Both the position numbers and the translations under genes were made by a program. The notes under the pieces are model-generated. The model saw nothing but the letters and a program-made list of their open reading frames with translations, did no database searches and had not been told where the DNA came from. Shown here one piece after another: positions 12,322 to 24,063 of a DNA stretch of 64,000 nt. Origin of the DNA: Sodalis ligni (lineage in GTDB: Bacteria > Pseudomonadota > Gammaproteobacteria > Enterobacterales > Enterobacteriaceae); contig NZ_CP075169.1 of NCBI RefSeq assembly GCF_016865525.2, positions 5,518,337 to 5,582,336 on the forward strand. Direction: 5' to 3'. Position 1 is the first letter of the stretch, and the number at the start of each line of letters is the position of its first letter.

Positions 12322-15300
12322 CTAGGGATTCTGGATAAAATTAACGCCTACCGGCAAGTTGGCCGGCCGGCCCGGTATATTGGTATCACTGGCATCAATT
12401 TCCTTCATCGATGGGGGAAAGCTTCCGGGTAACCGGGCGATGGGATTGCGGTTTATGGAGAGGATTTGCAGTGCGCCGGGCAACTCTTCCGGCAGCGTTA
12501 AAACAAAATTATTAGTGAGCTGAAGGGTCTTTAATCCGTGAGGCAAATTTGGCAACACCACTTCGATAAGGTTATGATTTAACACTAATACTTTCAAGCC
12601 TGGCGGTAAATAGGGCGGTGTTGAAGCCAGCAAATTTCCTGATGCGTATAATTTACTTAATTTCGGAGGCAAATAGGGAGGAAAAAAGGTTAATAAATTT
12701 TTCGAGGCATATAATTTTTCTAAACGCGGCGGAAGTAAAAAAGGCAACTCCACTATTCGATTACCGGTAATATCTAGGGTTTTCAATCTTGTTGGCAACA
12801 TGGGCGGCAAAGAGACAAAATGATTGCTTGCAATGTCCAAAAAGGTCATTTTAGGCGGCAGCTCGACCGGCAGGCTCAGCAGCTGGTTGTTGCGAACCTC
12901 CAGCCACGACATCCCATCCGGCAGATCCGGCAGCGCCCTCAACTGATTATTATTGGCGGATAAACGGGTGAGCGATTTCGGCAGCGGCAGCGGCAGCTGA
13001 TATAAATTGTTATTGCTGACGTCCAGAAAAGACAAACAGTCCGGCAGAACCGGCATTGAAGTCAGCATATTATGGCTTAAATCAAGAAAAACCAGCCGCT
13101 GAGATAAAGACGAAGGGATTTGAGTAAGAAAATTATGACTGGCATCCAGCATAGACAGCTTGGCAGGAAGAGGGGTCGGTAGCTGGGAAAAGAAATTGGT
13201 GCTGATATCCAGGCTCAGTATATTGTCCGATAATGGCTGCGTCACACAAGACAGGCGGTTGCCGCAGAGATCAAGATTGATAACATCATCTGGTAAAATC
13301 GCGGGCAAATCGGATAGAAAAAGGTCTCTCAGGATAAGCTGAGGGTTTGGCCCGTCGAAATAGATGTTCAGCCTTTCCCATGCCAGCCACCTCTTTTCCG
13401 CCGGCAAGGATTGAGCCAGCCATGGGCCCCACGCACGGGCATATCGTTGTTGTAACGATGCCAACCTTTCTGCTGCAAACGCTCTTAAACTGGCGGCCCG
13501 AATGGGTTCGTTTACATGGGGAGGGAAAGCGCGAAGCAAATTTTGTACAGGACCGATATCCAGTTTTTGAATGATTTCCCGTTGCAGTTCAGATGATAAG
13601 GTAAACAACAAGTTATATTCATACATTCCCGCCGCCCTCATCACATTTTGCGCCGCCCCGGTCAACTCTCCCGCCGGACTGACATAATCCGACCAGACAT
13701 TTTCGCTTAACCCAAAGTGAGTTAAAAATTCTTGCCTTCCCAGCGGACTGAGGCTATGTGCATTTTCCACCCAGCGCAGTATGTGATCTACCTTTACGGG
13801 AGGCGACTTTTGCAAGGGCGGTATTCCCCTTCTGCGCTGGACGGCCATCCGCGAGGCGGCACGGCCGGCGCCCCGGCCGCTTAACCCCGACTCAAGGATA
13901 TTTTTCAGGCGCTGCGCTATGGGTTTGGGCACCGTATGCAACATCCCCATGGAATCACGCGTATATCTCTTGCCAAAAACATTGCCCGTGACGAGGTCGA
14001 CTTGTGCATAAACCGGCTGCCGCTTATATTTTGCCCCCTGCAGTTTTTTCACCTGCACATCCTTATCTATCCCCGGCAGGCGGCCGGTTTCAATATACTT
14101 AGCGGAAATCAGGGGTTCACGTTGATGCAATAATACCGCCTCCAAATCAGGCAGCACTTTTTTCCAGGCCGGAATTATTTCGTTTAGCAGGCGGCCCGCC
14201 GCAGTCATCTGGCGAAGGGCATGGGTACCGATTATGCTCGCCAATTCCACGCCGGGATCAACGCTTCTGAGTAACGTCACTCCTAGTTGGATAAATGCTT
14301 TTTTATTCAGTTCCCCGGCTGCCGTAACCATCCCGTGGCGAGCAAATTCCCTGCCAGCCTGGCGTATAGCGGTCCTTAGCGTTTCGCGAGCCACAAGGGA
14401 GCTCATGGCGGACCGGTATGCCATTACTCCCCCCTTGAAACCTTGCTGGGCAAAACGGGAGGCCAGTCCCAAGCCCTGCCCGGCCAACGGTACCAACAGA
14501 ATCATGTCCAAGGCGCAGGAAATAGGCGCATCATTTTCTTGATTAACAATGCCGCTGATGCAGTTATAAAAGGGAATCAACGATAATAGGAATCTTTGCG
14601 CCTTTTCCCCGGTCGTTTCTTCATATCCCTGCTCATGTAGCTGATGAAGGAAATTATTCCGATGTTTTTGTATAAGCCGGCCGGCCAATTGTTCAAGCGG
14701 CTCCGCCGCGCTTTTCAAAAGCTCTCGTTCATTGTTATCGTAGACTCGCAATTTATATTCTTTATTCCGACTAACCTGTATGCTGTCAGCCATCAATTCA
14801 TAATATAATTTTTCCTCATAATCGACACGATTCAATTCGTACCTTTCACCCATATATTGCAATGCATAAATTCTTTTATTTCCATCTTGGGAAGCGGCAA
14901 ACAAATCGACATTAAGCGATAAAGGGATGGTGTGGGCGCGCCGGGGTAAAATCCGTACCGCTATTTGATAGCGAATCTCATCAAACGCCGAAAAATCCGC
15001 TGATGCCTTATAAATTGTCGCCGTTCGCAAAAAGTCAACTTCATCCCGCGGCAGCTGTTCAAAGGCTAATGCGACCATCAACATATCCACCACTGCAAAT
15101 TTTGCCGCGATGTCTTCATTCTGTTCCTTGAACAGCAGGTCGGCATCGGCGTTTTCAAGAACGAAAGGACGCACTCTGCCCTGGCAAAGGGGGCCGGCGG
15201 CCTTTTCATTCAGGGCCGTCCGGTTATTGTCCACCATGACGTCCGACGTTGATAGCATTTCTCTTAGCTGGGTACGGGTACGAAAATTTCCAAGAGCCTG

Positions 15301-15657
15301 GCTTAATTGGTTAAAGGGACTTTCTTCCACCTTTTGCCGTTCACTGGCGGCAAAAAAGGCCTCTAGAGCCATTTCATTCCCTTCCACGGAGCGGAAAATC
15401 TTTTCCATCGACAGTTCCCCGCTCTGCTCGGCCTGTTGCTTGATATACAAAAGCTTGGCGGGGAGTAAAAACAGACTCACAAGTTCCGCATCAATCACCC
15501 CTTCCCGCAACATATCTTCTAAAGAACGACCAAGTTGAATCAGTTCATCGATAGAAATTTGGCTGATACCTTTTTCCGTACGTCGGGCAATAATCAGACC
15601 GACATGCAAAAATCCCCAGTCCACGGTGCCTGCATGGAGATTGTGATTATCCATATC
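12322..15657 (-). CDS. Large LRR effector-like protein B, copy 2 (intact)
   Basis: About 1,112 residues from the ATG at 15657 (MDNHNLHAGTVDWG); the frame is open 11 codons further up, but that part overlaps the end of gene A. Residues about 1-760 are a soluble region with no motif I can name securely, containing a hydrophobic Gly-rich stretch (ALDMILLVPLAGQGLGLASRF) like the middle of large toxins annotated with dermonecrotic or DUF6543 domains. Residues about 770-1112 hold roughly 16 LRRs of the bacterial LPx type (LPxxLxxLxxxxNxLxxLPxxL). The repeat runs to the C-terminus, so there is no NEL ubiquitin ligase domain of the IpaH/SspH kind. LRRs of this type bind host proteins. Delivery by a type III system is inferred; no secretion genes are in the window. 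Confidence 0.8.
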   Translation of the reverse strand, partial: DMDNHNLHAGTVDWGFLHVGLIIARRTEKGISQISIDELIQLGRSLEDMLREGVIDAELVSLFLLPAKLLYIKQQAEQSGELSMEKIFRSVEGNEMALEAFFAASERQKVEESPFNQLSQALGNFRTRTQLREMLSTSDVMVDNNRTALNEKAAGPLCQGRVRPFVLENADADLLFKEQNEDIAAKFAVVDMLMVALAFEQLPRDEVDFLRTATIYKASADFSAFDEIRYQIAVRILPRRAHTIPLSLNVDLFAASQDGNKRIYALQYMGERYELNRVDYEEKLYYELMADSIQVSRNKEYKLRVYDNNERELLKSAAEPLEQLAGRLIQKHRNNFLHQLHEQGYEETTGEKAQRFLLSLIPFYNCISGIVNQENDAPISCALDMILLVPLAGQGLGLASRFAQQGFKGGVMAYRSAMSSLVARETLRTAIRQAGREFARHGMVTAAGELNKKAFIQLGVTLLRSVDPGVELASIIGTHALRQMTAAGRLLNEIIPAWKKVLPDLEAVLLHQREPLISAKYIETGRLPGIDKDVQVKKLQGAKYKRQPVYAQVDLVTGNVFGKRYTRDSMGMLHTVPKPIAQRLKNILESGLSGRGAGRAASRMAVQRRRGIPPLQKSPPVKVDHILRWVENAHSLSPLGRQEFLTHFGLSENVWSDYVSPAGELTGAAQNVMRAAGMYEYNLLFTLSSELQREIIQKLDIGPVQNLLRAFPPHVNEPIRAASLRAFAAERLASLQQRYARAWGPWLAQSLPAEKRWLAWERLNIYFDGPNPQLILRDLFLSDLPAILPDDVINLDLCGNRLSCVTQPLSDNILSLDISTNFFSQLPTPLPAKLSMLDASHNFLTQIPSSLSQRLVFLDLSHNMLTSMPVLPDCLSFLDVSNNNLYQLPLPLPKSLTRLSANNNQLRALPDLPDGMSWLEVRNNQLLSLPVELPPKMTFLDIASNHFVSLPPMLPTRLKTLDITGNRIVELPFLLPPRLEKLYASKNLLTFFPPYLPPKLSKLYASGNLLASTPPYLPPGLKVLVLNHNLIEVVLPNLPHGLKTLQLTNNFVLTLPEELPGALQILSINRNPIARLPGSFPPSMKEIDASDTNIPGRPANLPVGVNFIQNP

Positions 15658-15665
15658 TTCATGTC

Positions 15666-16681
15666 TTAACGCCAAACAAGGCAACTCCATAAAAGAACTT
15701 CATGGATAAGATAGTTTTGGGCGGTTTTATCAAAAGAATATGCTTTTTCAATACGCTCCGCCGCCCCTCCTTGGACATACCAATTTTGCCTAAAATATAT
15801 GAAAAAGAATGTCGTTTGACAATTTCACCGGCTGCCGATCGCTGCAACCATTATTCAAAACGGTCTGAGCGATAACCCGGCCGATAAATTCGCCGAGGCT
15901 ATATTTAAATAACAGCTGACTAAGCCAGTGTCTTGTGATGCCGTATTGTTGCTCGAGGCTTAATTTTTCATTCTCATGGGCGCCATACTCTCCTGAATCT
16001 TTCACCAAAAAAGATGAAAGAGACTTTAACCCATCGGGACAGCTAATGATATAAAGGATTGTTTTGTCAATAATGCTTGCAACGTCATTTTTGATATTTT
16101 CCTTAAAATATTTTTCCAGAAATCGTCTACTCTTTTGGGTCAGCTGGAACACTGGATTTTTTTTCCGATCTTCCTGGTATTTTTTGCCCCGTTTCGTCCT
16201 GCCGGAGGTTGGAGATTCGATGTCTGATACGGATTCAGCCGACAACGCCAGGGTGGAATTCGGCTTGACCAATCGTGTTGAAGCGTAAATACCTGTGGAT
16301 TTACCCGTAGCAGCGCCGCGATTGCGCCGGCCTGCACGCTGAAAAAATGATGAATGATGATCGGCGGTAATAGCGCCGACATCGCTGTAGGCTGACGGCA
16401 ACAAGGAATAAGGCGTTTTAGCCAGGCCAGCCAGGTTACGGGTCTTCGCGGTCTTGAACGCTTGCGATCGGACCAAGGCCTCGCCGGTCGTCAGTGAAAT
16501 ATTGGAAATCATTAATATTGATTGCAGTATCAATAACGCTCTCGCCCTTTTGGCTGCGTCTCCAGGGCATTTTGACAGATCGTCCAGCATGTTTTGCTGA
16601 GCATCCTGATTGATGCTTTTTATTAATAGTGTTATGATAATTACCGACATTATTTCTAAATAACTGTTGAGATATTGGCAT
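15666..16681 (-). pseudogene. Gene A, copy 2: secreted-like helical protein, two frameshifts
   Basis: The original start is the ATG at 16681 (MPISQQLFRNN), matching copy 1. The frame slips at an A5 run near 16625 and continues in the long open frame that ends at 15790 (NDILFHIF-stop). It slips again around a T-rich run near 15800 into a frame ending at the TAA at 15666-15668, where AQNYLIHEVLL matches ARNYVYHEIIL of copy 1. Between the slips about 275 codons are intact, including KRARALLILQSILMISNISL and SCPDGLKSLSSFLVKDSGEYG. The stop lies 8 bp before the B start, so A and B form an operon. Family unknown; probably a secreted protein or a partner of B. Confidence 0.72.
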
Positions 16682-17592: not shown

Positions 17593-18561
17593 TCAGCGCA
17601 CCTCGCCGAAGCCCACCGGCGTCCAGCGGTAGCCCTGGCTGCCGTCGGCGCGCAGATAACCGATGCCGGGGAAGGTGATATGGGCGCCGGCAATCAGGGT
17701 TTTTTGACGGACCACCTGTTTTAGCAGCGCCTGGCGGGTTTTAATCGCCAGGGCGCTATTGGAATCAAAGCCGATACCCAGTTCGGGATGGGCAAACTGC
17801 AGCGCCGAGTAGTGGACGATATCCCCCCAGAACAATATGCTCTGACCGTTTCGCTCCAGCATAAACCCGCTGTGGCCCGGCGTATGGCCTGGCAACGCCA
17901 CTGCTTTCAGGCCGGGCAGCAGGTCTTTATCGTAGCTGAAACTGTGCAGTCTGCCCGCCGTCTCATAGGGCGCAAGGATATCCCTGGCGCGCTGGAAGGC
18001 GGCCTGCTGATCGCTGGGCGCACCGTCGAGATTGGCCTGGGAAAGCCAGTAATCCACTTCCGGTTTCGACGCCCATACCGCGGCATTGGGAAACGCCGGC
18101 TGTCCGTTGTCGGTCACCAGCCCGCCGATATGATCGCGGTGCATATGGGTCAGCAAAATCATATCCACCTGCTCCGGCCGGTAGCCGGCGGCTTTCAGAT
18201 TGGCCATGGCCTGGCCGAACCCCGGTCCCAGCAGCTTGCCGCCGCCGCTGTCGATGAGGATCAGGTGGTCGCCGGTATTGATGAGAAAGCTGTTAACCGA
18301 GCCGTTCGCTACTTTGGGAGCGTCGCCGTCCACGGCGGCAACCTCTCGTTGCAGCGTTTCGGGGGCTGCATTTTTGAATAAGGTTAAGGGAAATGTCGAA
18401 CTGCCGTCATACAGGGCGGTAACCTGGGCGCCGCCCACCATGATTTTGAAATAGCCCGGCGCTTGGTTTTTCACCAGCGGTATGGAGGCTGTGTCGGCAT
18501 CGGGGGCCAGCACAACGGCAGCCATGAGGACAGCGGCGCGGGTAAGGCTTTTTATCGTCAT
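17593..18561 (-). CDS. Exported MBL-fold metallohydrolase
   Basis: 322 residues from the ATG at 18561, which has GGAG seven bases upstream; the frame extends further but without a better start. A hydrophobic signal peptide covers about residues 1-24, ending near PDADTAS. The zinc motif LTHMHRDHIGGL (HxHxDH) follows the strand ILIDSGGGKLLG, and later HTPGHSGFML and GDIVH supply further metal ligands, as in lactonase-like or glyoxalase-II-like MBL proteins. It should act in the periplasm as a hydrolase; lactones and thioesters are candidates. It is the last gene in line with the ABC transporter and lyase genes, after a 150-bp gap, and may share their transcript. Confidence 0.85.
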   Translation of the reverse strand: MTIKSLTRAAVLMAAVVLAPDADTASIPLVKNQAPGYFKIMVGGAQVTALYDGSSTFPLTLFKNAAPETLQREVAAVDGDAPKVANGSVNSFLINTGDHLILIDSGGGKLLGPGFGQAMANLKAAGYRPEQVDMILLTHMHRDHIGGLVTDNGQPAFPNAAVWASKPEVDYWLSQANLDGAPSDQQAAFQRARDILAPYETAGRLHSFSYDKDLLPGLKAVALPGHTPGHSGFMLERNGQSILFWGDIVHYSALQFAHPELGIGFDSNSALAIKTRQALLKQVVRQKTLIAGAHITFPGIGYLRADGSQGYRWTPVGFGEVR

Positions 18562-18711
18562 TTCTTTTCTCCGGCGAAGTCGTGGATCGGATGACAATCA
18601 GGAAATGTCGCTTGCTTACGGACTTATTGACACAATGACCGGTCGGGATGAACCTGTATGTCAGCAGTCTAATCAATAGTTTCCTGAACCGCACCCCCTT
18701 TCTCGCCCGGA

Positions 18712-20247
18712 TCAGACCTCCGCGGCGCTTTCTTCCGCCAGCAGTCTCGCCAAGAGATTTTGACCGGTTATCAGCCGAGCCGCGGTACCGATATCCGGCG
18801 CCAGCCAGCGATCCGCCGTATAGGGCGCGACCTGCTCGCGCAGCAGCGACCAGGCGCGGACCGTGCCGTCGCCGCACTTTTCCGGCCCGATAAATTCCAG
18901 CGCCTGCGCCGCCAGAAGGTATTCGATAGAGAGTATCTGCGCAAGATTTTGCAAAGCGCGATCCAGCTTCAGCGCCGCGCCGGTGCCCATGCTCAGATGA
19001 TCCTCCTGCAAGCCGGAGGTCACGAAATTATCCACCACCGCCGGCTGCGCCAGTTGGCGGTTCTCACCCGTTAGGGCGGCCGCGACGTATTGCGTTATCA
19101 TCATGCCGGAATTCACGCCGGGCTCACTGACCAGGAACGGCGGCAAACCGCTCACCAGCGGATTCACCAGCCGATCGATACGCCGTTCCGCCACGCCGCT
19201 CAATTCAGCCACCGCCACCGCCAGCAAATCGGCGGCCATCGCCACCGATTCACCGTGAGGATTGGCCTGGGAGACCACGCGAAAATGCTCCGGCGTGCCA
19301 AGCACCAGCGGGTTATCGGTGGCGGAATTCAGCTCGATGCCGATATGCCGCGCGGCATGGTCTATCTGATCCCGGCAGGCGCCGTGAATTTGCGGTATTG
19401 AGCGCAGGCTGAGCGCATCCTGGGTGCGCAGGTTGACGCTTTCAGCAATATTTTTACTGTGCCGAATCATAAGACGCAGATGCCCGCCCACCTTCTGCAT
19501 GCCGGGGTGGGGCTTTAAGGCCAGGATTTCCGCATCAAAGGCATTGGCCTGCCCCCGCAGGGCCTCAAAGCTCATGGCGCCGATAACGTCGGCCCAATCC
19601 GCCAGACGCACCATATCATCCAGCGCCAGGCTGCTCAGGCCGGTCATACAAGGCGTGCCGTTCACCAGGCACAGGCCGTCCTTCGCCCCGAGCTCCGGCG
19701 GCGTCATCCCCGCCGCCGCCAGCGCTTCGGCGGCGGCGCAGCGCTGGCCGTCATAATCCACTTCACCTATGCCCATCAGCCCCAGGCCGATATGGGCCAT
19801 ATGGGTCAAATACCCCACCGAACCCTGGGACGGCACCAGAGGGGTAATATGGTGATTGAGCAGATCCAACAGCCCCGCCACCACGTCGCGCCCGATGCCG
19901 GACTTACCCTGGCTGTAGTTGGCGATGGCGGCGCAGATAATGGCGCGTGCCTGTTCGCTTCGCAGCGCCGGACCGACGCCGCAGGCGTGGCTCATCAAGG
20001 TATTGCGGGACAGCGCGGCCAGTTGGTCCTCCCGCAGCGCCACATTGCATAACGCGCCCAGACCGGTATTGATCCCGTAGGCGCGTTCGCCGGACGCCAC
20101 TACCAGATGGACGATGGCGCGGGCGTTATCGATACGCCCCCAGGCGGTCTCCGACAACGCCAGCGCCGCGCCGCCGCGGGCCACGGCGGTGAGATCGCGC
20201 CAGCTTAGCGGCCCGTCTCCGTAAACGATTGTTTTGGTTGATGACAT
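18712..20247 (-). CDS. Histidine ammonia-lyase homologue lacking the MIO triad (ergothionase-like?)
   Basis: 511 residues from the ATG at 20247. The fold is clearly that of histidine/phenylalanine ammonia-lyases: YGINTGLG (57-64), GSVG (142-145), PHPGMQKVGG, QIHGACRDQIDHAA, SATDNPLV, VNSGMMITQY and QEDHLSMG. Where active family members have Ala-Ser-Gly, which cyclises to the MIO electrophile, this protein has Tyr-Leu-Thr (residues 146-148, bases 19804-19812). QDxYSLR has also become QDALSLR. It therefore cannot form MIO. From memory, ergothionases, which eliminate trimethylamine from ergothioneine, are MIO-independent relatives, so a betaine of histidine is a better substrate guess than histidine. 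It starts 25 bp after the ABC ATPase stop, so uptake and breakdown are coupled. No hutU, hutI or hutG is present. Confidence 0.8.
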   Translation of the reverse strand: MSSTKTIVYGDGPLSWRDLTAVARGGAALALSETAWGRIDNARAIVHLVVASGERAYGINTGLGALCNVALREDQLAALSRNTLMSHACGVGPALRSEQARAIICAAIANYSQGKSGIGRDVVAGLLDLLNHHITPLVPSQGSVGYLTHMAHIGLGLMGIGEVDYDGQRCAAAEALAAAGMTPPELGAKDGLCLVNGTPCMTGLSSLALDDMVRLADWADVIGAMSFEALRGQANAFDAEILALKPHPGMQKVGGHLRLMIRHSKNIAESVNLRTQDALSLRSIPQIHGACRDQIDHAARHIGIELNSATDNPLVLGTPEHFRVVSQANPHGESVAMAADLLAVAVAELSGVAERRIDRLVNPLVSGLPPFLVSEPGVNSGMMITQYVAAALTGENRQLAQPAVVDNFVTSGLQEDHLSMGTGAALKLDRALQNLAQILSIEYLLAAQALEFIGPEKCGDGTVRAWSLLREQVAPYTADRWLAPDIGTAARLITGQNLLARLLAEESAAEV

Positions 20248-20272: not shown

Positions 20273-21049
20273 CTAATGATGGCTGGAGATAAATTGCCGG
20301 AAGCGCTCGGATTCATGGTGGGTAAACAGCGCCTCAGGCGTGCCCTGCGCCTCGATATACCCCTGATGCATAAACACCACCCGGTTCGATACGCCGCGGG
20401 CAAAGCCCATTTCATGGGTGACCACCAGCATGGTCCTGCCCTCTTCCGCCAGAGCGCGCATCACTTTCAGCACCTCCCCCACCAGTTCGGGATCCAGGGC
20501 CGAGGTGGGCTCGTCAAACAGCATCACTTCCGGATCCATCGCCAGCGCCCGGGCAATGGCGACGCGCTGCTGCTGCCCCCCGGACAGCTGCGACGGGTAA
20601 TACTCCCGCCGGTCGTACAGTCCCACTTTCGCCAGCAGACGTTCGGCCTGCTCCAGGCACTCTTTGCGGGAGTTTTTCAATACGTGCAGCGGGCCTTCCA
20701 TCACATTTTGCATGGCGGTCATATGCGACCAAAGATTGAAGCTTTGGAACACCATGCCCAGCCGGGCGCGGATGCTGTCAATCTGGCGCCGGTCGGCGGG
20801 AAACTGCCGTCCCGACGGGTGGCGCTTCATCCGGATGGTTTCGCCGCCGATGGCTACCGTGCCTTCGTCGGGAATCTCCAGCAAATTGATGCAGCGCAGA
20901 AAGGTGCTTTTACCTGAACCGCTGGCGCCCAGTATGGAAATAACTTCTCCTTGCCGGGCATCCAGCGAAATGCCTTTCAGCACCTGCTGATCGCCGAAAG
21001 ATTTACGGATATCAATCATCGACAGGGTAATGGGGGCGGGTTTGTTCAT
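20273..21049 (-). CDS. Polar amino-acid ABC transporter ATPase (HisP-like)
   Basis: 258 residues with every ABC motif in place: Walker [10 protein letters not shown] at about 41-49, Q-loop VFQSFNLW, signature LSGGQQQRV, Walker [13 protein letters not shown], and the switch His in [10 protein letters not shown]. The insert after [13 protein letters not shown] residues ([19 protein letters not shown]) is typical of the HisP/OccP subgroup that serves basic amino acids and opines. It overlaps the upstream permease gene by four bases and is followed 25 bp later by the lyase homologue. It energises the two permeases encoded upstream. Confidence 0.93.
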
Positions 21050-21780
21050 TCTCTCTCCCTAAGCAGGGTGTCACTGTTATCGGCCAACGCGGGGCGAGGA
21101 CGTAAATGATGGGACAGCCGTTTTTCCCAGGCGGCGAACAGGCGCACCAGGATGAAATTCAGCAGCAGATAAATCACCGCGGCACAGACAAATACCTCCA
21201 TCGTCCTATAGGTACGCTGGATAATCTGCTGCGCGACGCCGGTGACGTCCCAGACGGTAACCAGACTGGCCAGCGCGGTGGACTTCACCAACAAAATAGC
21301 TTCGGTGGAGTAGGCCGGCAGCGCGTAGCGCAGGGCAATGGGGCCGATAATCCGACGCACCAGCACCCAGCGCGACATGCCGTTGGCCAATCCGGCTTCA
21401 ATTTGCCCGTGGGGAATGGACAGCAGGCCGCCGCGGATAATCTCGGCGGTATAGCCGGCGGTGCACAACGCCAGCGCCAGCACCGCACAGGAATAAGGGG
21501 AGCGCAATACCGGCCAGAACAGGCTTTCACGTACCAGGGAGAACTGCCCCAGCCCGTAATAAAGCAGGAACATCTGGATCAACAGCGGCGAGCCGCGAAA
21601 CACCATCATATAGCCGCGGGCAAAATAGCTCAGCACCGGATAACGGCTGACGCGCAGCGTCACTATCACCAGCGACAGCAGGCCGCCGAGGATAAATGAG
21701 CAGATAAACAGCCCAAGCGTAGTGGGCAGCGCCGCCAAAAGCTTGAGCATGGTATCGCTGAGAAAGGCAATATCAATCAT
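21046..21780 (-). CDS. Amino-acid ABC transporter permease 2 (HisM-like)
   Basis: 244 residues with about five membrane segments and the HisMQ signature: [20 protein letters not shown], then the EAA loop [20 protein letters not shown], which couples to the ATPase. It pairs with the HisQ-like subunit encoded just upstream. Its last bases overlap the ATPase start (ATGA), which suggests coupled translation. The substrate is not readable from the permease; see the binding protein and the lyase. Confidence 0.92.
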
Positions 21781-21807: not shown

Positions 21808-22524
21808 TTAACGGGAAGCAAAAGGCGTTTTTCCTGAGCGGCCAAGACGTTTCTCCGCGCTGCTGATCAAGGGATTGGAAAGACCGGTCAACACCAGATA
21901 ACAAAGGCCGCCGATAATATAGAAAGTGAAATACTGCCTGGTAGACCCCGCGGCCACCTGGCTGGCGCGCATCAGCTCGACGATGCCGGTTACGGACACC
22001 AGCGCCGAATCCTTCAGGCTCATTTGCCAGACGTTCGCCAGGCCCGGCAGCGAATAACGTAGCACCTGCGGCAGCAGGATCCGCCGCAGCACACAGGCTT
22101 TGGTCATCCCCATAGCGTAAGCGGCCTCCAGCTCCCCCGGCGATACCGCCATGACCGCGCCGCGATAAACTTCCCCCTGATAAGCGCCGGAAATCATGCC
22201 GATTGCCAGAGCGCCGATGAGAAACGCCGGCACTTCAATATAGCCGTCCGCGCCGAAGAACCGACCGATCACGGTCAAAAAACCCGAACCGCCGAAGTAA
22301 AAAAGATAAATAATCAGCAATTCCGGTATTCCGCGGAAAATCACCGAATAGCCGTCGCCGAAAAAACGCCACAACCGCCGGCGGGACAGCTTTGCGCCGG
22401 CCACCCAGGCGCCGAACACAGACCCCACCAGCAGCGCGGCAAAGGTCAGGCCCAGGGTGGTCAGGGCGGCCAACAGCATCATGCCGCTCCAGCCATCACT
22501 CGAAAATCCCAGCATCTCCAACAT
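21808..22524 (-). CDS. Amino-acid ABC transporter permease 1 (HisQ-like)
   Basis: About 238 residues from the ATG at 22524, which has AGGGGTGG seven bases upstream; a GTG nine bases earlier is possible. Motifs are VIFRGIPELLIIYLFYFGG and the EAA loop ELEAAYAMGMTKACVLRRIL, normal for this family. It lies 27 bp before the second permease. The 155-bp gap to the binding-protein gene carries a 42-bp direct repeat. Confidence 0.92.
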   Translation of the reverse strand: MLEMLGFSSDGWSGMMLLAALTTLGLTFAALLVGSVFGAWVAGAKLSRRRLWRFFGDGYSVIFRGIPELLIIYLFYFGGSGFLTVIGRFFGADGYIEVPAFLIGALAIGMISGAYQGEVYRGAVMAVSPGELEAAYAMGMTKACVLRRILLPQVLRYSLPGLANVWQMSLKDSALVSVTGIVELMRASQVAAGSTRQYFTFYIIGGLCYLVLTGLSNPLISSAEKRLGRSGKTPFASR

Positions 22525-22589
22525 GTTCACCACCCCTATTGCTGTTGCCGTAGAACCACCCCGGCAGGGAACTATCGATTTTCGTCCCG

Positions 22590-22672
22590 GACCGAATCAA
22601 TCCCGGCGGCGCTTTATGGCTTTGCGCCTCTGACCGAATCAATCCGGCAACGATTTATGGCTTTGCGCCCCG
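22590..22672. repeat. 42-bp imperfect direct repeat, two copies
   Basis: Two copies, starting at 22590 and 22632, share GACCGAATCAATCC, then GGC, then TTTATGGCTTTGCGCC; a third GGACCATCATGG stub follows. The repeat lies between the binding-protein gene and the first permease gene, where many periplasmic-protein operons carry RNA structures that reduce downstream expression. That role is inferred. Confidence 0.7.
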
Positions 22673-22688
22673 GACCATCATGGGATCT

Positions 22689-23546
22689 TTACGGCGTCAC
22701 ATCGGTTTTAAACCATTTTTCGCTGAGTCGTTTCACCGTTCCGTCCGCCATGGCGGTTTTAATCGCCCCATCGAACTTGGCTTTTAAATCCTGATCGCTT
22801 TTACGTATCCCCAGCGCTTCCCCCTGCCCCCAGACCGGCCCGGCGATTTTCGGGCCGTCAAAGCCTAGATCCTTGTTCTCCGGCCGGGACATGATTGACG
22901 TAAAGAAGGTCACGTCATCAAATACCGCATCGATACGCCCCGCCTGCAAATCGAGAATAGCGTCCGCCGACGCGTTATATTCCCGCACCGTGGCGATATC
23001 CTTGAAATATTGGTCGATAAACGGCGTGTATACGGTGCCGGAAGCAATACCGATGGTTTTGCCTTTCAGCGCGGCGCGTAATCCGGCAATGGCGGGATTA
23101 ATGGAGGCGGGATCGTTGGTGAGCTTGATAATAGCTTTATCACCGGTGGTTTCCGGCAATATCTTGCCGCCCACCGAGACAAAGCTGGCGGCGGTGGCGG
23201 CATAGGGCACCGTAAAGTCGATAACCTTCTGACGGTCCGGAGTGATAACGATGGCATCCATCAGCACATCGAATTTACCCGCCTGCAGACCGGCTATCAT
23301 GCCGTCCCAGTTTTGCACCACCAGCTTGCACTGCATCTGCATCCGTTCACAGAGTATCGTCATGAGTTCAGGTTCAAAGCCGCTCAGCTTGCCGCCGGGC
23401 AGCGTCAGGTTCCAGGGCTCGTAGCTGCCTTCGGTGGCGATGGTAACGGATTTCCACTCTTTACCCTGCGCCGGCAGGACCGCAAGAAATGCCGCCCCCA
23501 AAACGCCAGCCACTAACATACCGGTAAATCGATGATGATATTTCAT
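22689..23546 (-). CDS. Periplasmic amino-acid-binding protein (HisJ/ArgT family)
   Basis: 285 residues. An N-terminal signal peptide of about 28 residues ends near PAQGKEW. The mature part follows the SBP_bac_3 pattern: IATEGSYEPWNL, FEPELMTILCERM, FDVLMDAIVITPDRQKVIDFTVPY, GIASGTVYTPFIDQY and FDGAIKTAMADGTVKRLSEKWF. These proteins deliver polar or basic amino acids and opines to HisQMP-type transporters. Here the ligand is probably related to the substrate of the linked lyase homologue, such as histidine, hercynine or ergothioneine. That is inference from context. It is the first gene of the operon; a palindromic TGTATATACA lies 37 bp upstream of the start. Confidence 0.9.
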   Translation of the reverse strand: MKYHHRFTGMLVAGVLGAAFLAVLPAQGKEWKSVTIATEGSYEPWNLTLPGGKLSGFEPELMTILCERMQMQCKLVVQNWDGMIAGLQAGKFDVLMDAIVITPDRQKVIDFTVPYAATAASFVSVGGKILPETTGDKAIIKLTNDPASINPAIAGLRAALKGKTIGIASGTVYTPFIDQYFKDIATVREYNASADAILDLQAGRIDAVFDDVTFFTSIMSRPENKDLGFDGPKIAGPVWGQGEALGIRKSDQDLKAKFDGAIKTAMADGTVKRLSEKWFKTDVTP

Positions 23547-23582
23547 AGCGCGGATTCCCCGTAAAAAGTTTGATTATGTACA

Positions 23583-23592
23583 TGTATATACA
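23583..23592 (-). promoter_or_regulatory. HutC/GntR-type operator over the transporter-lyase promoter
   Basis: Perfect palindrome TGTATATACA, flanked by TGTACA, 37 bp before the binding-protein ATG. HutC and related GntR regulators recognise TGTA-N2-TACA cores. On the reverse strand a candidate promoter reads TTGGCC, 17 bp, TGTATA, which puts the operator on the -10 box; a second reading, TTGCTT, 17 bp, TACATA, is also possible. No hutC gene is in the window, so the regulator would be encoded elsewhere. Confidence 0.55.
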
Positions 23593-23779
23593 AGACCAAG
23601 CAATTAAAGGGCCAACACCGCAGGGAAGTTTAAGAAAGATTGTACCGGCGTTTCAGCGCCGGCCAACGGGATAACGCAACGCATTGTCATGCGCGACGAG
23701 ACAAGACGCCCTCATTTTGGTGCAGCGGCAAAATCCGCCGGCACCAATTTGAGGCAAAAACCCGCTAATGCAACGCTGG

Positions 23780-24050
23780 CGCTCAGGCCCGCCATCACAG
23801 AAGCTGAACCGGACGTGTTAAAGGGAGAGCGTGCCGATGGGGTCGAAGCGGGCGTGGTTTTACCGCCCGCCGGAGCACCCCATGGCGCGCTAGGGCCGCC
23901 ATCACTGAAGCTGAACCGGGCGTGTTAAAGGGAGAGCGTACCGATGGGGTCAAAGCGGGCGTGGTTTTACCGCCCGCCGGAGCACCCCATGGCGCGCTAG
24001 GCCCGCCATCACTGAAACTGAACCAAGCCTGTTAAAGTGAGACCAGCGCA
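23780..24050. repeat. 107-bp repeat array 1 (about 2.3 copies)
   Basis: The GTGTTAAAGGGAGAGCG segment recurs at 23815 and 23922, with a partial CTGTTAAAG copy at 24029, a period of exactly 107 bp. Each full unit folds into a hairpin: outer arms ATGGGG / CCCCAT extended by GCC / GGC, inner arms GCGGGCG / CGCCCGC around TGGTTTTAC. It fills most of the gap between the ABC operon and opgD. Array 2 at 26.5-27.2 kb has the same period and fold with different bases. Confidence 0.85.
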
Positions 24051-24063
24051 TCCGGCACTTCTT

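Follow-up and report, generated by a model that had tools for sequence, protein, structure and literature searches.

The window analysed here is a stretch of 64,000 nucleotides of the Sodalis ligni genome (contig NZ_CP075169.1, positions 5,518,337 to 5,582,336 of the forward strand). On its minus strand lies a gene for a lyase with the fold of histidine ammonia-lyase (HAL) that is devoid of the Ala-Ser-Gly tripeptide forming the 4-methylideneimidazole-5-one (MIO) cofactor. The gene and its altered loop are located as follows:

18712..20247, minus strand: MIO-less HAL-fold lyase of the HutH1 type, 511 amino acids (PF00221 profile match and homologues)
19792..19824, minus strand: shortened MIO-loop region GSVGYLTHMAH, residues 142-152 of the lyase (alignment with HALs)

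A HAL fold without the MIO tripeptide

The ATG start of the lyase is at position 20247, the mechanically called open reading frame extending to 20415. The fold motifs of HAL are kept, as originally predicted: the Lyase_aromatic profile PF00221 matched with 531 bits, placing the protein in the superfamily of histidine, phenylalanine and tyrosine ammonia-lyases. The AlphaFold 2 model has a predicted local distance difference test score of 92.6. The lyase scored 519.1 bits with the hutH equivalog TIGR01225, under the cut-off of 539.15, and 536.7 with the NCBIfam subfamily PRK09367, over the cut-off of 524. The predicted QDALSLR motif is also found in its sequence.

Positions 19804-19812 read TAT TTG ACC on the minus strand, encoding Tyr-Leu-Thr within GSVG-YLT-HMAHIG. 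The original prediction that the MIO triad is lost thus holds, but not as a straight replacement of Ala-Ser-Gly by Tyr-Leu-Thr, which is ruled out by the alignment with HALs: GSVGASGDLAPLAH faces GSVGY---LTHMAH, a loop shortened by three residues that takes out the MIO tripeptide together with the neighbouring loop Asp. Since the tripeptide is absent, the ordinary HAL reaction is excluded, as the prediction had argued, and the absence of MIO chemistry is, on the sequence, near certain. Homologues 67-90% identical to the lyase occur in Sodalis, Pseudomonas and Serratia (best 120 of 7,447 matches, one of them 99% identical). The lyase and all of these 120 homologues carry GSVGYLTHMAH followed by Ile or Val, with Tyr146 and His149 invariant (121/121), a pattern far from chance. 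By contrast, the next relatives, at 40-42% identity, retain Ala-Ser-Gly in 14/14 loci (L031-L044). Judged by the conservation of GSVGYLTHMAH and of the active-site residues described below, the lyase is a member of a conserved MIO-free family; a decayed gene is ruled out by this conservation and by the open reading frame.

In HAL, whose active site is tetrameric, residues are assigned as carboxylate holders, imidazole holders, the catalytic Tyr, and residues packing against MIO. We compared HAL positions 53/83/195/277/280/283/329/414 in 119 window-type rows (2 of 121 dropped for length), 114 rows of a type found on Klebsiella plasmids (6 of 120 dropped) and 121 ergothionase-type rows (Treponema denticola counted twice). 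The letters were Y H N Q L R P E in 119/119 window-type rows, Y H S Q L R G E in 100/114 and Y H G Q L R G E in 11/114 Klebsiella-type rows, and Y H S Q L R F E in 112/121 ergothionase-type rows. The lyase therefore keeps HAL Tyr53, His83, Arg283 and Glu414, with Tyr280 changed to Leu and Phe329 to Pro. All MIO-less rows, including 14 extra rows from further loci, have Leu or Ile at position 280, as opposed to Tyr in every MIO row (15/15 in one set, 22/22 in another). Likewise, Pseudomonas putida HutH (1b8f) shares the fold and the substrate-binding residues with the lyase, and differs from it in having Ala-Ser-Gly, Tyr280 and Phe329. With roles carried over from HAL, these patterns suggest that the carboxylate- and imidazole-binding residues and the catalytic Tyr stay, and that the residues packing against MIO change. 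Tyr57, His87, Gln276, Arg282 and Glu415 of the lyase are invariant in 119/119 window-type rows, which argues against an inactive HutH paralogue that would serve in regulation or as a structural protein, an explanation that the loss of an essential cofactor would otherwise favour.

Relationship to ergothionase and other MIO-free lyases

For the trees, we left out the loop, position 280 and the positions near 329; they comprised 75 rows (tripeptide present in 22, absent from 53) and then 73 after removal of two long branches. By sequence clade and by its shortened loop, the lyase is of the HutH1 type, in a window clade comprising Sodalis, Pseudomonas, Serratia, Erwinia and one Rhodospirillaceae metagenome-assembled genome. 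This clade shares one side of a branch with the Klebsiella type and with sequences of Rhizobium and Priestia (support 95/85), and ergothionase (6s7j) and its kin form a separate clade (support 100). Although the best tree separates them, holding all MIO-less rows as one clade was not rejected (approximately unbiased test, p-AU 0.133), so MIO may have been lost once or twice.

The original prediction had pointed to ergothionases as MIO-independent members of the superfamily. A solved MIO-free relative indeed exists, the T. denticola ergothionase 6s7j, which shares with the lyase the HAL fold, the lack of MIO, Leu at HAL 280 and the retained Tyr53/His83/Gln277/Arg283/Glu414. However, the comparison by tree and active site that the prediction proposed places the lyase outside the 6s7j clade in the best trees, at 30% identity. 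The ergothionase loop (SIGEGD) is one residue shorter than that of HAL, as opposed to three in the lyase, and ergothionase keeps Phe329, with Ser at 195 and a QK motif, where the lyase has Pro330, Asn196 and QY; the IGxxD loop of the ergothionase clade is likewise absent from the lyase. MI-x-QY is present in 121/121 window-type proteins and the QK pattern in 110/120 of the ergothionase type. We rejected the ergothionase label on the loop, the active-site residues and the best-tree clade. That the lyase nonetheless acts as an ergothionase, converting ergothioneine to thiourocanate and trimethylamine, is favoured by the solved relative, by Leu at HAL 280 in both enzymes and by the common origin of all MIO-less lineages that was not rejected; given the differences above, and ordinary hut genes as neighbours of its relatives, including HutU, which acts on urocanate, we consider it unlikely.

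Klebsiella plasmids (L056) encode MIO-less proteins named aromatic amino acid ammonia-lyase; together with their relatives these are termed clade B and have the same three-residue shortening, with GSVGY[LI] in 117/120, and the L056 lyase shares QDALSLR with the window lyase. Members L056 and L065 are accompanied by an importer with an OpuAC binding protein. By contrast, clade B is only about 40% identical to the window lyase, has Gly at 329 and Ser or Gly at 195 in nearly all members, and displays PPY in 113/120 proteins and His149 in 0/120.

Further variants were seen on plasmids. Four more MIO-less lyases, on rhizobial plasmids (L054, L062, L063, L069), have loops one residue shorter than that of HAL and group with ergothionase; the L054 lyase adjoins an OpuAC binding protein. 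In Rhizobium sp. BT04 (L065), the Klebsiella-type lyase and OpuAC importer stand with CoA-transferase, hydratase and dehydrogenase genes and no hut genes, which may indicate a different aromatic betaine as substrate. Lyases beside amidohydrolases in Burkholderia ambifaria and on an Agrobacterium vitis plasmid resembled ergothioneine-degradation loci, but were set aside as they retain Ala-Ser-Gly.

Importers and hut genes around the lyase

The predicted transporter genes just upstream of the lyase are indeed present, as four ATP-binding cassette (ABC) genes on the same strand that form one apparent operon with it; they are listed here together with the gene downstream of the lyase:

20273..21049, minus strand: ABC ATPase of the HisP/PAAT type (NCBIfam HisP 355.6 bits, under the cut-off of 466)
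21046..21780, minus strand: ABC permease of the ArtM/HisM type (profile matches)
21808..22533, minus strand: ABC permease of the HisQ/ArtQ type (profile matches)
22689..23546, minus strand: periplasmic binding protein, SBP_bac_3 (profile and solved-structure comparison)
17593..18597, minus strand: metallo-beta-lactamase-fold hydrolase directly downstream of the lyase (profile matches)

The ATPase gene ends 25 bp before the lyase start and overlaps the ArtM/HisM-type permease gene by 4 bp. The hydrolase was rejected as a member of the conserved unit, being found only in Sodalis sp. dw_96 among the loci compared. By eye, the spacers 23547-24063 and 22534-22688 contain repeated segments, suggesting interspersed repeats in the genome. 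Elsewhere in the window, 12322-15690 encodes a protein of 1122 amino acids with C-terminal leucine-rich repeats, which matched only leucine-rich repeat families and is by eye reminiscent of secreted effectors.

The ABC importer alone does not reveal the substrate, its binding protein being nearest to OccJ (octopine) and NocT (nopaline) among solved proteins; the same holds for the binding protein of the relative L083. These opine-binding relatives favour a lyase for another N-substituted histidine, such as the opine histopine, that would yield urocanate and an amine other than trimethylamine. Yet the Asp of MDxxxIT (MDAIVIT in the window) and FDD are present in 11/11 lyase-linked binding proteins, the corresponding sites in OccJ and NocT being Ala and LAN/LAS (Ala, Asn or Ser), and these extra Asp residues would suit a cation better than the second carboxylate of an opine. 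In addition, BCCT and OpuAC-type proteins in relatives indicate betaines, and a secondary amine should be a poor leaving group without MIO. Another N-substituted histidine as substrate therefore appears rather improbable.

We compared 35 window-clade loci (L001-L030, L048, L083-L086), mostly from Pseudomonas, one of them only 3.2 kb long. The importers were the betaine-type HutXWV at 24 loci, the window type at 8 and BCCT at 1, with none of these at 2; hut genes lie near the lyase in 30/35 and an ordinary hutH beside it in 17/35. HutX of P. aeruginosa PA7 is an OpuAC protein, a betaine-binding domain, and the transporter preceding the lyase of genome G269 matched BCCT (PF02028) with 390 bits. 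At L026, L083 and L084, the window-type importer and lyase adjoin hutI, hutG, hutF and hutC; in L018, L030 and L083 a check showed the gene labelled hutG to be one for N-formylglutamate amidohydrolase. Outside the window clade, two Rhizobium plasmids have the same five-gene order. On a Priestia plasmid, hutU, hutI and a gene of the arginase family lie near a MIO-less lyase, and on a Klebsiella plasmid such a lyase is accompanied by HutU, HutF and an OpuAC binding protein.

In most Pseudomonas loci, the lyase follows HutXWV in the hut operon, as opposed to the separate operon with a HisJQMP-type importer in the window. The order in P. kilonensis (L018) is hutC-hutD-hutU-NCS1 permease-HutXWV-lyase-hutH-hutI-hutG. 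The lyase orthologues from Pseudomonas share 67-74% identity with the window protein and agree with it in the shortening of the loop and in the active-site residues. We infer that the lyase is HutH1 of the Pseudomonas hut operons: the described position of hutH1 in P. fluorescens SBW25 is that of the lyase orthologues, the equation resting on gene order (L018 against the order described in PMC8871633), not on sequence. In P. aeruginosa PA7, the orthologue (L006:8001-9533) is located between the HutV ATPase and hutI; PA5093 is named hutG in PMC12772324. No assignment of a function to HutH1 and no description of a hercynine lyase was found in the titles and abstract openings of the open-access literature, and subscription papers could already describe one.

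In PMC8871633, hutH1 is reported to be dispensable for growth on histidine, which bears on two alternatives. It would fit a dead paralogue; this we nevertheless hold to be highly improbable, because three unrelated importer types accompany the lyase within its clade and two of the best 120 homologues, P0010 (785 amino acids) and P0012 (726 amino acids), join the lyase domain to an ABC ATPase domain, possibly by fusion or by a merged gene call of neighbouring genes. The reported dispensability also counts against free histidine, or a close analogue, being cleaved by a cofactor-independent or alternative-cofactor route. Such a substrate is suggested by HALs being the best solved-structure matches and by the retained histidine side-chain residues, but is very unlikely given the missing tripeptide, the hutH beside the orthologue in nearly half of the loci, and the ordinary HutH genes of the same genome: its only two other PF00221 genes, both located elsewhere, are MIO-bearing HutH. 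At one of these (G000:C1:738000-756000, L057), genes for HisQ, HisM and a binding protein, and one for a hydantoinase/oxoprolinase, come after the HutH gene.

The original statement that hutU, hutI and hutG are missing from the window was borne out: tblastn with one protein each matched no hutU, hutI, hutG, hutF, hutC or hutD in its 64 kb. Elsewhere in the genome, hutI, hutC, hutF, hutD, hutXWV and hutU, the latter being the single genomic copy (2.9685 Mb), form a cluster at 2.961-2.970 Mb that contains no hutH. egtD was not found in the genome, with a control query that matched in only 1/14 genomes, below the cut-off.

Proposed cleavage of hercynine

The import and breakdown of a histidine betaine, as originally predicted, is favoured by the hut and betaine-transporter context of the relatives, a context that indicates hercynine rather than ergothioneine, since it points to urocanate as the product. 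We therefore regard as reasonably likely that the lyase is a MIO-free trimethylamine lyase that would convert hercynine (N-alpha-trimethyl-L-histidine, histidine betaine) to urocanate and trimethylamine, a substrate to which the entry of urocanate into the hut pathway, the imidazole site, the freed room, the good leaving group and the betaine transporters together point. Close relatives in Pseudomonas and enterobacteria probably cleave trimethylamine from histidine betaine as well.

In the proposed mechanism, which transfers the residue roles of HAL to the lyase, the ABC importer encoded with it would take up hercynine. Arg282 would bind the substrate carboxylate, and His87 and Glu415 would bind and protonate the imidazole, making it an electron sink, while Tyr57 would abstract the beta proton. 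The trimethylammonium group would occupy the room left by the loss of the MIO loop and by the changes of Tyr280 to Leu279 and of Phe329 to Pro330. Because this group is already a good leaving group, an electrophilic cofactor would not be needed. The urocanate would go on to HutU, HutI and HutF, whose genes lie at another place in the genome.

Several observations weigh against hercynine or limit its support. The closest MIO-free enzyme of known reaction acts on ergothioneine, and a single MIO-less clade was not rejected. The window binding protein is similar to proteins that bind opines and amino acids, with no match to a betaine family in the profile scans, and HutXWV, which in this genome stands in a hut operon without the lyase, may simply import histidine. 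The 35 loci, picked by similarity to the window protein, are an uneven sample, and no hut gene lies near the lyase in 5 of them (L001, L020, L023, L048, L085), nor in the window. Finally, a survey of 295 Enterobacterales genomes yielded matches at 1e-100 in 12, comprising 5 MIO-less orthologues and 7 ordinary HutH; hutU was present in 5/5 orthologue-bearing genomes against 157/295 overall, a weak association (chance 0.04, uncorrected for kinship), and the 157 hutU matches include at least 16 of a lower-scoring type. The best hutU matches in these 16 or more genomes are at about 1e-120 to 1e-125, those printed scoring 412-419 bits in open frames of about 670 amino acids, possibly a second urocanase-type family.

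A broader proposal, whose chances we judge evenly balanced, is that the HutH1 family constitutes a second, structurally distinct kind of MIO-free trimethylamine lyase that is specific for hercynine and relies on the loop deletion and the conserved Tyr146 and His149 rather than on the ergothionase solution. Histidine betaine would then enter the hut pathways found in pseudomonads, Serratia, rhizobia and some enterobacteria, and these pathways would be a source of trimethylamine not assigned so far. Proteins of at least 120 clusters are named histidine ammonia-lyase although the HAL reaction via the MIO route is impossible for them. Hercynine as substrate would account for a "second histidase" unneeded for growth on histidine, would offer a second cofactor-free arrangement of the HAL fold for comparing MIO-free elimination, and would give hutH1, the spare "histidase", a directly testable function that ties hut operons to histidine betaine.
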